A stretch of DNA of 64,000 nt, from assembly GCA_024516035.1 (NCBI GenBank), contig CM044961.1:13576439-13640438 (forward strand), read 5' to 3'. Positions 1 through 36,500 of the stretch are shown one piece after another. Below the pieces are notes generated by a model. It saw nothing but the letters and a program-made list of their open reading frames with translations, did no database searches and had not been told where the DNA came from. This stretch comes from Bactericera cockerelli. Its lineage: Eukaryota; Arthropoda; Insecta; Hemiptera; Triozidae. Within the stretch, counting starts at the first letter, position 1. Each line of letters starts with the position of its first letter. The position numbers were made by a program, and so were the translations under genes.

Positions 1-3000
1 AGTGAGTAATATACTAATTTAAGTATCTATCATCCTTATATTTTAACATTTTTTCAAGGATGAATGTCCAGAATAATTTTTTTTCTCAGTGTATGGAATG
101 TAGGTACCACTTGAACGAAATGAACTAACCCCAGTGTCAGCAGTCAGGGGTGGGTCAAATTCAGGATGGGCCATGAACTGGGAATCACTGAACTGGGCCT
201 CTTCCACCCAACCGGTGAATGAGGTGTCGTTCTCACCGATCAGGTCGAGGATGGTTTCGTCCGTGGTGAAGAGAATTGTCTGGAGGTAGAACAACAGGAT
301 GCCATGAAAAAATCTTGTTTAAACGAAAGTTAAATTTGGCATTCGACTTGATTTAAGTACATAATATATACATAATTATGTATCAGGTCCTTAGATGAAT
401 ACATTAACTCATTCGACAGTGAAAAAAAAACGACCATAATTTACGACACTTTTATTTCAAACTTTTAGTATTCCTTTGTAATTTCCTTCCACTATGAACA
501 AGAATTTTACTATAAAATTAATATTTTATGAGGGTTGAAAAAAAAGTGTCGAAAGTTATAGAGGCTTTTTATCACTGTTGAATGAACCTACATATTCTCG
601 AAAGAGAGACAAATCAGTAAGTATGCCATAATGAAATTGGGTTAAAGTAAAAAGTAAAATCTTTCAAAGACACCCAGGTCCATCCTAACCTAGGGTGTGT
701 GATTTCAACCCACTAAAACCCACCTCCTCTAAAAGCTAACCCCACTTGGAACCGAAAAATATCATTACATCAAGCACGACGGTGTAGGGCACCTACTGAT
801 TTCGATGTAGGACCCTCAAATCTCTCTCTTTTATCACTATTATCTCTTTTTATGATAGTACAATAATAAATTTTCATCGTTCCCTGACGCCACACCCATT
901 CAGTTATTCCTAAGGCTATAATACGATAGTACATTATTACAAAAGTCACACTTGGATGCTAGAGTCACCCAAGCCCGCACTTACATCTCCGAAGGAACAA
1001 GGCGGGCCCACAAGAGTACCGCACGCCCGGGCTATTTCTCCCCGGAATATGACGGTATCGTCCAGTAACATCTCCACATCCTTCACGCCGCGGTATGAGT
1101 GTATGCGGGACTTGTTGTAGTTCTGGAAGAAATAGATTAAGAGACTTGTTTCTAACCAACCACTAACCATACAAGCTAGATGGTTTTTAGAGTATATTTT
1201 TTGCTGAACCGTAAAGAGTGATGGTGAGCCCAATCTTTTAATGAAGCTCCACCCAAAAAAATTCCAAGACATTCACATTTCACTCTATTCACAAAGTTTC
1301 GGTTGTATAAATTTTATCCTTCTAGACCCTTTTGGTCCAGTGGATATCACATTGGGTTACCGTATATTGATTGGGTAGCTCGTTGGTAAGTTTTCACTGA
1401 ATGGAGGATGAAACCATCGTCTCGATATGACATTCGCTTTAGATAAGAGAGACTTTTAAATCCACAGCAAAAATTCGTACCAAACTCATAAACGGCCCAA
1501 TGTAGCAGAGTCGGGCTCAAATGACTGACCCATATTCTCACCAGCACCACCACCTCCTCTGTCTGGAAGTCTAATGACTCACCCATATTCTCACCAGCGC
1601 CACCACCTCCTCTGTCTGGAAGTCTAATGACTCACCCATATTCTCACCAGCGCCACCACCTCCTCTGTCTGGAAGTCTAATGACTCACCCATATTCTCAC
1701 CAGCGCCACTACCTCTTCTGTCTGGAAGCCTAATGACTCACCCATATTCTCACCAGCGCCACCACCTTGTCCTCTGTCTGGAAGTCTAATGACTCACCCA
1801 TATTCTCACCAGCGACACCACCTCCTCTGTGTCTGGAAGTCTAATGACTCACCCATATTCTCCGCCACCACCTCCTCTGTGTCTGGAAGTCTAATGACTC
1901 ACCCATATTCTCACCAGCGCCACCACCTTGTCCTCTGTCTGGAAGTCTAATGACTCACCCATATTCTCACCAGCGACACCACCTCCTCTGTGTCTGGAAG
2001 TCTAATGACTCACCCATATTCTCCGCCACCACCTCCTCTGTGTCTGGAAGTCTAATGACTCACCCATATTCTCACCAGCGCCACCACCTCTTCTGTCTGG
2101 AAGTCTAATGACTCACCCATATTCTCACCAGCGACACCACCTCCTCTGTGTCTGGAAGTCTAATGACTCACCCATATTCTCCGCCACCACCTCCTCTGTG
2201 TCTGGAAGTCTAATGACTCACCCATATTCTCACCAGCGCCACTACCTCTTCTGTCTGGAAGCCTAATGACTCACCCATATTCTCACCAGCGCCACCACCT
2301 CCTCTGTCTGGAAGCCTAATGACTCACCCATATTCTCACCAGCGCCACCACCTCTTCTGTCTGAAAGTCTAATGACTCACCCATATTCTCACCAGCGACA
2401 CCACCTCCTCTGTGTCTGGAAGTCTAATGACTCACCCATATTCTCCGCCACCACCTCCTCTGTGTCTGGAAGTCTAATGACTCACCCATATTCTCACCAG
2501 CGCCACCACCTCTTCTGTCTGGAAGTCTAATGACTCACCCATATTCTCACCAGCGACACCACCTCCTCTGTGTTTGGAAGTCTAATGACTCACCCATATT
2601 CTCCGCCACCACCTCCTCTGTGTCTGGAAGTCTAATGACTCACCCATATTCTCACCAGCGCCACTACCTCTTCTGTCTGGAAGCCTAATGACTCACCCAT
2701 ATTCTCACCAGCGCCACCACCTCCTCTGTCTGGAAGCCTAATGACTCACCCATATTCTCACCAGCGCCACCACCTCTTCTGTCTGAAAGTCTAATGACTC
2801 ACCCATATTCTCACCAGCGACACCACCTCCTCTGTGTCTGGAAGTCTAATGACTCACCCATATTCTCCGCCACCACCTCCTCTGTGTCTGGAACTCTAAT
2901 GACTCACCCATATTCTCACCAGCGCCACCACCTCCTCTGTGTCTGGAAGTCTAATGACTCACCCATATTCTCACCAGCGACACCACCTCCTCTGTCTGGA

Positions 3001-33576: not shown

Positions 33577-36500
33577 TACTCACAGAACATACCCTACGTA
33601 ACAGAATACTGTTATGTTATGTTGGGTGGAAGAGATTGCCACAGGCAATAACCCCGCCCTTTAGGTAGGACATTTAATTATTGGTATTTCCTTTTTTTAC
33701 TTATTTATTTTGTCATTTGTTTGTTTGTTTTTTTTTTTTTTTTTTTTTCTTAATTTTATAATGTTACCTGTACTTTGTCCTCCTAATAAAGCTTAAAAAA
33801 AAAAAAAAATACTCACAGAGAGGCGCCGCTATCCTGGCTGGTGTGGTGGGGTGTGGCGCTCTCCAGCTCAAACACATGCACAGTCTCCGTGTTGCTGGAG
33901 CAGGTCAGGTAGGCGGAGTTGGCGCTGAAAGCCAGGGAGGAGATGGCCACGCAGCGCTTGACGCCGCGGCGGAACTCGTAGAGGCGCTGCCCCGAGGCCA
34001 CACTGAAGACGCGCAGCACGGTGCCCTGGGGGGTCAAGGAGATACATACTTATTATTATTATTATTATGTATAAGTTGACGGGAGATACCCATTTTACAA
34101 GTTTCCCTAACCTATCTAAAACGTAAAACTAAAGCTTAAAATTCAGCTTATCTACCTATTTTGAGAAGACATTATACTCTCTTAAAAAAAATTAAAATAA
34201 TAATTCATAGATGTATTTATTAACTATGGTTGGGTGGAAGAGCTCAAGCAATTTGAGAATCCTGCCATTAAAGCCTTTAAAAAAAAACTATTAAAAAAAG
34301 GCTTACAAAAATGGAAAAAGGAACTGATTAAAGACAGAAACAGACCAACCTTCTTGTTCTTTGAAACATTGTAATAAGTTAAGTTATCATATTTGTGTTA
34401 ATCACTTTCGTGATATCACAAAATCGATCAAGCTACTGAGGTCGGAATTACATACATACTTATCTACCTATTTTGAGAAGACATTATAGTCTCTTGAAAA
34501 AAAAAAAAAAATCACTGAGGTATTTATTTACCTAGAAAAGACATACAAACATGAAAAAAGGTACTGATGAAAGACAGAAACAGACCAACCTTCTTTGAAA
34601 AGAAAAACATTGTAATATTTTATACAATTGGCGATACAGTTGGCTGTATATTGGCGTTATTCAATATCTTGCTCTATTATTCGTTATTTAATTTGCTGGA
34701 TAAATGTCCATAAAGAACCATGCTGACCCCAAGTAGGTTTGGGCAAAGGGATAGAAGAAGATTACAATCACATAATATTCTGTTTTTATGTATTCCTTTC
34801 AAAGTATTTTTTAGTTTGTTCAGATTGTTAAATACAAAGTGTTGCTTACCTTCTCTGAGGCGGTGGCTAGACGCGCGCCTGAGGGGGAGAATGCAAGCGC
34901 TGCTAGGGGAGAATCGTGCGCTGGAATCATTGTCTTGGCATGCTGGGGGAATGAGATGATTATTAGTAATCAACTTTATTACTCAGGTATTTAAATCGAT
35001 AAATTTACGTGGGTACATTTTATTTATTCTAATGATAAATTCATTAGAATAGTGTTGAACACATTAGCTTAAAATATTAGGAGATAAACAAAAAAATAAA
35101 ACACCAACCGAATTACAAAAGAAAAAAGACGAAGGACAGAGAAAAGGAAGTCCTACCAAAAGGTATCTCTGACAATCAATTTCACCTCACAGTTATTAGG
35201 GATAGTATTGAAGATATGTTCGAGTTGTGGTGCTGGAGTGAATAGAAGGGAAAGAGTATAGAGGACCAATGTGAATGAAGACTTTAAACAGGGAATAGAG
35301 CAGAAATAAAATCAAAGGCCTTCTTGTCTTTATGTTTAAGTGGCAAAGGACCAAAAGCAACCTTTTGAATAGTCACATACTTATGTATATTTGTACTATA
35401 AAAGATTAGTAAAACAGATTCGTCCTGAAGCACTGTGCATCTCTTACCAGATTGTCTGCGTCAAATATCTGCACCTCCCCTATAGAGTTAGACCCAGGGT
35501 AGGCCAGGTAGCAGTTGTCTGAGTTGACACAGAGGCAGCAGATGCCGTTAGGATTGGGTGGTGTGTCTCGTATGGTGTGCAGGACCTTCATGTCACGTAT
35601 GTTGTGAATGTACAGTGACTCCTCTAGACATACCACGAGCCTCTGTGATGGAATATAATCATTGTAAATAGGTAATACAGATAAATAATCAGGCAGTGAG
35701 ACAATTAATCACAAATAACACAGCCAATTTCTTACAAGCCTAGATCTTTGATTTATAAAATTTCTTTTGAAAGAAATAATAATAATTCACAATTGGAAAT
35801 CCAGCCATTTTTGTACAACATACTTTGTGAATAGGTAAGTGAAAATATCTCGAACTTTTTATTTTGTAGGTATTATACAATAGAAAGCTCGAGAGGATAT
35901 AGGTATTATAATATAGAAATCTCCCCAACCTGTGATTTAACTCAGGATTTCTGGACTACAGGCAGTAGCCACAACTATTACACCATGGGCGCTGGCTTTA
36001 GGTACACACAAGCGGGCTATCGCCCGCTTTGCGGGCCGAGGCATGGCCGTGAAAGCAAAAAATTCTTTTTCGCCAATTGCAGGTGTTGTAGTGGGAATTT
36101 CAAAAAATCCCGTCTTATTGCACATCTAGACTATAAGACAAAGCTACCTACCAAATTTCAGCTTCCTAGGACTTACGGTTTGGGCTGTAGAGCGATGATC
36201 AGTCAGTCAGTGGTCAGTCAGTCAGTGACTTTGACATTTATATATTAAGACTAGCGGGCTGTCGCCCGCTTTGCGGGCCGAGGCATGGCCGTGAAAGCAA
36301 AAAATCCTTTTTCGCCAATGGCAGGTGTTGTAGTGGGAATTTCGAAAAATCCCGTCTTATTGCACATCTCGACTATAAGACAAAGCTACCTACCAAATTT
36401 TAGCTTCCTAGGACTTACGGTTTGGGCTGTAGAGCGATGATCAGTCAGTGGTCAGTCAGTCAGTGACTTTGACATTTATATATTAAGATTATTTCCCACC

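Follow-up and report, generated by a model that had tools for sequence, protein, structure and literature searches.

Exon-edge arrays in three neighboring genes

The DNA analyzed here is a stretch of 64,000 nucleotides from the psyllid Bactericera cockerelli (GenBank assembly GCA_024516035.1, contig CM044961.1, positions 13,576,439 to 13,640,438 of the forward strand; hereafter, the window), in which three genes carry repeat arrays built from the edges of their own exons. WIPI2 (− strand) is the only window gene identified by database search, being 84% identical to a protein of Diaphorina citri and 78% identical to one of Cacopsylla melanoneura. The remaining genes, named from their translations, we take to be KATNIP (− strand), an AUH-like enoyl-CoA hydratase (+ strand) and a CCDC137-like gene (+ strand). 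An earlier reading of the sequence, the original prediction, had described six arrays at exon boundaries, and every one was recovered both by Tandem Repeats Finder (TRF) and by comparison of the window with itself. All six are in gene orientation and adjoin their own parent exon. In five, the unit runs across the exon-intron boundary, as in the “mirage” minisatellites of lancelets, and the AG or GT splice signal lies within the unit; the exception is the array at the last exon of WIPI2, which spans the coding end instead. The accompanying claim that a splice site or stop codon is carried along holds for the arrays, with the qualification that the copies of WIPI2 exon 6 are interspersed and not simply tandem. 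The array units differ from one another in sequence, and the arrays are a real feature, present in most of the genes sampled.

One array in the window derives from KATNIP exon 5 (4644–4841, − strand; assigned from translation and splice sites), whose donor GTGAGT lies at 4638–4643. TRF and self-comparison place the array of exon end plus donor at 1520–4253 on the same strand, with a 53-bp unit in ∼51.6 copies. The parent stretch (4638–4694) has GTGAGT, read on the gene strand, at both ends (4638–4643 and 4689–4694); one of these is the true donor and the other lies inside the exon, 51 bp apart. An exchange between these hexamers would leave just such a GTGAGT-bounded unit, and it is directly visible in the sequence. 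No retroelement was seen inside the units of this array. Elsewhere in a KATNIP intron lies a retroelement of the long terminal repeat type (6742–10656), with 183-bp ends that are 100% identical; its − strand has an extended open reading frame.

Two arrays on the + strand belong to the hydratase gene, and both were detected by TRF and self-comparison. The first comes from the end of exon 2 (17726–17881, from translation and splice sites, with the donor GTGAGT next to it) and consists of exon end plus donor in a 109-bp unit repeated ∼6.6 times at 18033–18777; the TRF interval is 18033–18756, copies can be traced to 18777, and the parent stretch is 17787–17937. The second lies at 20037–20368, where a 64-bp unit of intron end, acceptor and exon start occurs 5.1 times before exon 4 (20359–20543, from translation and splice sites). 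This array is nearly all intron, with an exon share of only 10 bp, and CTCG stands at both of its ends.

In WIPI2, all features are on the − strand, with parent exons assigned from translation and splice sites. The end of exon 6 (33817–34025; parent stretch 33804–33902) recurs with its donor at 29785–33803, as detected by TRF and self-comparison, and the copies are separated by pieces that, judged by eye, resemble tails of the 3′ end of a long interspersed nuclear element (LINE); a similar tail also lies at 45528–45710. Exon 7 (28619–28792) is the parent of copies from both of its edges. Its end and donor form an array of 29 bp × 3.1 at 28538–28626 (TRF and self-comparison), an outlying copy of the same edge lies at 28203–28256 (self-comparison), and a single copy of its start with the acceptor was found by self-comparison at 29170–29265. 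This last copy (parent 28707–28802, 93.75% identity) is a seventh case, missed in the original prediction. The end of the last exon is repeated as 95 bp × 3.8 at 24561–24914 (TRF and self-comparison); the units contain the end of the coding sequence with its stop codon but no splice site. Relatives have either of two C-terminal endings, one of them ...EFPPVIQNVE, and inspection by eye of the WIPI2 proteins of three relatives revealed no copy-derived stretches.

Three further observations concern this gene. Exon 8 (∼27555–27650) is interrupted by a TGA in frame. At one place in the last exon (24890–25000), the copy belonging to the exon itself lacks 2 bp relative to the array copies. The proteins of the three relatives read through both places, which look like consensus indels or decay. 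A 242-bp unit occurs twice in a WIPI2 intron (36011–36488) and contains no exon edge.

Edge copies in sampled genes and genome-wide

Two further sets of genes were sampled. Sample C consists of seven stretches (L030–L036) with six chaperonin genes, found by Pfam search and chosen regardless of repeats; it covers 40 of the 68 chaperonin exon hits and is the only sample free of choice by prior sight of arrays. Sample F consists of three genes from the flanking 200 kb, presumably V-ATPase subunit a and a receptor-like gene, together with a coiled-coil gene. The window genes, counted as a third set, include the 3′ part of KATNIP beyond the window. Exon edges were called automatically from splice-site scores (74 in C, 28 in F and 54 in the window genes), and an event was defined as a local same-strand duplication left after dispersed repeats had been masked.

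Events contained an exon edge far more often than expected in each set: 6 of 9 in C versus 0.99 expected (P < 2e-4), 5 of 11 in F versus 0.87 (P = 4e-4) and 5 of 11 in the window genes versus 1.06 (P = 0.0006). Inspection by eye of the other six window events gave two more that are edge-like, the WIPI2 coding end and KATNIP exon 5 with its miscalled edge, whereas four are not edges. For C and F together, 11 of 20 events contained an edge versus 1.86 expected (P < 2e-4). The excess was retained with GC-matched seeds (11 versus 1.45 expected, P < 5e-5) and with seeds drawn only from windows of at least 45% GC (11 versus 3.29 expected, P < 5e-5). When the chance per event was doubled, as an assumed detection advantage, P was 3e-4 with uniform seeds and 3e-5 with GC-matched seeds.

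A similar result was obtained with TRF arrays holding an edge copy, of which there were 5 among 30 in C (1.24 expected, P = 0.004; GC-matched, P = 0.003), 4 among 16 in F (0.57 expected, P = 4e-4), 4 among 14 in the window (1.42 expected, P = 0.03) and 9 among 46 in C and F combined (1.82 expected). Points placed 40 bp inside exons had copies in 3 of 102 cases, compared with 13 of 102 edges (P = 0.017, C and F); with the window genes added, the values were 7/156 and 18/156 (P = 0.035).

Over all sets, then, 18 of 156 edges have a local same-strand copy, and both boundary types are affected (10/77 donors and 8/79 acceptors), again as in lancelet mirages; local copies on the opposite strand were found at none of the 156 edges tested. 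Arrays occur on six of the seven scaffolds sampled. Boundary copies appeared as events in four of the seven chaperonin stretches (L030, L031, L033 and L035) and by TRF in L032; there were none among the events of L034, L036, the coiled-coil gene or the CCDC137-like gene. The V-ATPase gene has three boundary arrays, at the acceptor before DRSGSSVPP, at the donor after NKDPIYG (a 25-bp unit in ∼59 copies) and at the donor after SEMFIHQ, and the receptor-like gene has two. Two other flanking candidates, at 129562 and 136197, were examined and not used as boundary arrays. Automatic calling missed or misplaced the edges at KATNIP exon 5, L031 5758–5800 (in the TRF version only), L031 7456–7580 (3 bp of exon), L030 7647–7797 (which ends at the acceptor) and the coding-end arrays of WIPI2 and L031 8807–9403, and none of these was put into the automatic counts. 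The last of them resembles the WIPI2 last exon and comprises, from translation by eye, a chaperonin coding end with its stop in ∼2.8 copies.

The chaperonin genes provided two side observations. A GC-AG donor (GATCTGAAG followed by GCAAGT) is present at oriented position 1794 of L032, and some chaperonin exons occur twice on one scaffold with equal or near-equal scores (C3:26491703 and 26619354; C3:37251706 and 37510024; C1:46343244 and 46700684), reflecting either segmental duplication or uncollapsed haplotypes. A search of the whole genome for COX1 gave 16 partial matches, with no full-length mitochondrial copy among them.

The genome (565.0 Mb) was also scanned for tandem triples of splice-site words, a measure in which matches count copies and not arrays, irrespective of parent exons. 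Triples of the donor word GGTRAGT, spaced 20–50 bp apart, gave 10,915 + 11,912 = 22,827 matches versus 3,014 for the reversed word, 1,775 for a scrambled word and 3,230 for the reverse of the scramble. Single donor words in a 323-kb sample numbered 167 versus 113, 83 and 112 for the control words, a ratio of about 1.6. The acceptor word TTNCAGG gave 3,366 triples versus 1,655 for its control, with 161 versus 173 singles (ratio 0.93). Among the matches listed for C1, donor clusters numbered 9 over 5.1 Mb, where the scramble rate (18 clusters over 21.3 Mb) would predict 4.3 (P = 0.03). No triples of the longer word AGGTRAGT were present in the 323-kb sample. Pairs of GGTRAGT (29,323 versus 13,232 reversed) were set aside, as reversed pairs far exceeded what the triples suggest; their high count probably reflects dispersed repeats.

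Origin of the copies and strength of the edge preference

The reading that we regard as probable is that these are “mirage” minisatellites, arising as local duplications that span exon edges, seeded by two routes, then enlarged and in part made conspicuous by survival and detection. A stretch across an exon edge would be duplicated locally, and the intron would keep the extra copies, since the exon-proximal copy of the site stays available for splicing; duplications within exons would be eliminated by selection. The copies extend 7–96 bp into exon sequence (17 edges) and are located outside the parent exon. Along the first route, short homologies may promote tandem duplication, for which the two GTGAGT hexamers of KATNIP, 51 bp apart, and the two CTCG motifs of hydratase exon 4 are candidates. 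Along the second, a retroelement insertion (a short interspersed nuclear element (SINE), a LINE piece or an A/T-rich tail) may generate a target-site duplication spanning the edge. Copy number could then rise by slippage or unequal exchange. Part of the edge excess would be a survival and detection effect, the exonic parent being frozen, GC-rich unique sequence.

Compatible with the second route are a SINE between 20-bp direct repeats across a chaperonin acceptor (L033) and a SINE between 40-bp direct repeats across a V-ATPase donor. Direct repeats of at least 16 bp were found in only 2 of 24 SINE rows (21 distinct 3′ ends), both at exon edges, in a search liable to overlook repeats that were short or diverged. 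Visual inspection showed LINE or A/T-rich tail pieces separating the edge copies of WIPI2 exon 6, L030 6207, L035 9555 and L031 5757, and retroelement pieces were present between edge copies at six edges in all. One reading of this arrangement is an insertion with a splice-site-saving target-site duplication, only such insertions surviving; the alternative is insertion into an already existing pair. No element was seen inside the units of L030 4349–5035 or L035 4255–4687, which look like pure tandem arrays. The suggestion in the original prediction of repair or reverse transcription at GTGAGT/AG motifs gains from the GTGAGT exchange visible in KATNIP and from the retroelement pieces at six edges, but neither process explains all of the arrays.

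Several observations weigh against this reading or against the edge preference on which it draws. In an interval test, where an edge was counted only if inside the TRF interval and arrays were placed at random, full-length placement gave 6 versus 4.0 expected in C (P = 0.19), 10 versus 6.7 in C and F (P = 0.10) and 3 versus 3.5 in the window genes (P = 0.77). With unit-length placement, the values were 6 versus 1.9 (P = 0.008) and 10 versus 2.7 (P = 5e-4) for C and for C and F, and 3 versus 1.7 for the window genes (P = 0.22). The interval test is governed mainly by final array length and misses parents lying apart from their array, and it was for the latter reason that tests of unit content and of repeat-masked events were adopted; these were picked after the interval test had failed, and so was the decision to weight the event counts more heavily. 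The comparison of edges with introns proposed in the original prediction, run crudely on C and F, yielded no excess of local same-strand copies (13/102 edges versus 27/283 intron points, P = 0.35), with the limitation that intron points may fall within the same arrays and that dispersed repeats contribute. By distance, the intron points had copies in 10/101 cases at 150 bp, 10/92 at 300 bp and 7/90 at 500 bp. Over all intron points outside edge-bearing arrays in C and F, 588 of 8171 had forward copies and 657 had reverse copies; in the window genes, with the KATNIP array left unmasked, 619 of 3095 had forward copies, and dispersed repeats and hairpins affect this measure throughout.

Sample F was assembled after arrays had been seen in two of its three genes, with other flanking open frames excluded. 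The combination of seeds from at least 45% GC with the assumed 2-fold detection advantage reduced the event result to a P of only 0.03. The C1 clusters, among the matches listed, are about equal per single word (167 versus 83 singles), so that much of the eight-fold triple excess reflects longer arrays. Finally, the KATNIP splice window is kept better than the rest of its unit (415/416 versus 2226/2317 positions identical to the consensus). A skeptic may read the crude tests as the original prediction's own refutation. Its claim of a widespread feature with edges preferred stands in the event tests and the genome-wide words and fails in the interval and point tests; the edge preference, whose strength is uncertain, is supported by the former.

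The strongest competitor to selective retention of edge-spanning duplications is mutational hot-spot activity at splice sites or at the edges of transcribed exons, where breaks, R-loops or endonuclease nicks at AG/GT-like motifs actively seed duplications. The edge excess persists after GC matching, donor-word triples are ∼5 times those of matched words after correction for single-word frequency, two GTGAGT hexamers bound the KATNIP unit, and the only two SINE rows with long direct repeats are both on exon edges. By contrast, hydratase exon 4 (CTCG) and the V-ATPase acceptor (GCCGCCCAT, by eye) appear seeded by unrelated short homologies, the cluster count per single word is without excess among the matches listed, the crude point test is flat, and survival and detection biases could account for part of the excess. 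This explanation is held to be possible but rather unlikely. The same tentative standing is given to its more specific form, that exon edges in this psyllid, at about one edge in ten, are genuine duplication hot spots, where splice-site motifs undergo retroelement insertion or repair by short homology that keeps copying exon ends into introns. If true, it would provide a standing supply of spare splice sites as raw material for new introns and exons.

It is very unlikely that the copies are functional, maintained by selection as redundant or decoy sites that adjust splicing. Their gene orientation, the core GT or AG dinucleotide being 90–100% intact in seven arrays and the well kept KATNIP window would fit such a role. 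Pooled over the seven arrays, however, positions identical to the consensus number 1194/1246 in the splice window and 5860/6117 in the remainder of the unit (95.8% each), and in the hydratase exon 4 and L030 arrays the splice window is the less conserved part. Copied splice sites are thus conserved no better than their surroundings, and the copies look neutral; functional redundancy was rejected on this ground. None of the unit lengths 53, 109, 64, 29 and 25 bp is divisible by three (the 51 bp of L030 is), and copy number varies between one additional copy and ∼59. Least credible of all is an assembly artifact, with repeats collapsed, inflated or mis-joined: near-identical paired loci and what look like indels in the coding sequence of WIPI2 (exon 8 and the last exon) speak for it, but the units differ mutually, the exons with arrays are independent and spread over six scaffolds, and splice-word enrichment in genome-wide tandem triples is not expected from random assembly error. 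The copy numbers given by the assembly may nevertheless be wrong.

Relation to known systems

Were mirages to occur at about one-tenth of the exon edges in an insect, they would represent a general mode of intron evolution and not a lancelet oddity, and models of how introns are gained and splice sites chosen could be tested on them. They would also constitute an annotation trap in psyllids, where false exons or displaced exon ends could be called. A testable seed mechanism is suggested by the apparent association with target-site duplications of retroelements.

In lancelets, mirage minisatellites are described in Adh3, the globins BflGb6 and BflGb9, troponin C and PGBD5 as tandem units of ∼10–160 bp that cross an exon-intron boundary on either its 5′ or its 3′ side, in many instances include splice signals and lie next to the authentic exon; undisturbed splicing and length instability are reported (PMC3087553, PMC3902484). 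The psyllid units, on these accounts, are alike in spanning exon edges at either boundary, in carrying splice signals and in lying beside the parent exon. They differ in occurring in an insect and in most of the genes sampled, in having coding-end versions and one 25-bp array of ∼59 copies, and in the retroelement pieces between some copies. The psyllid arrays are described from a single genome assembly.

A literature search, with most subscription papers outside it, found no report of genome-wide occurrence or of psyllid cases. In the receptor genes OR5/8 of Ostrinia, repeats of 181 bp derived from exon 7 extend into intron 7 (PMC3081303). This, too, is an insect case, in which exon and unique sequence is repeated two to five times into the intron; unlike the psyllid arrays, it concerns one gene cluster and is linked there by the authors to gene duplication rather than to a wider tendency (PMC3081303). 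In the model of Rogers, an intron is gained when a segment carrying AG/GT proto-splice sites is duplicated in tandem (PMC3087553). The duplication of exon sequence bearing a splice signal is common to that model and the psyllid arrays, but the model yields a new intron, whereas the psyllid copies sit in an existing one. In summary, the structure is already known from lancelets and from one moth receptor cluster, and its breadth in an insect looks new.

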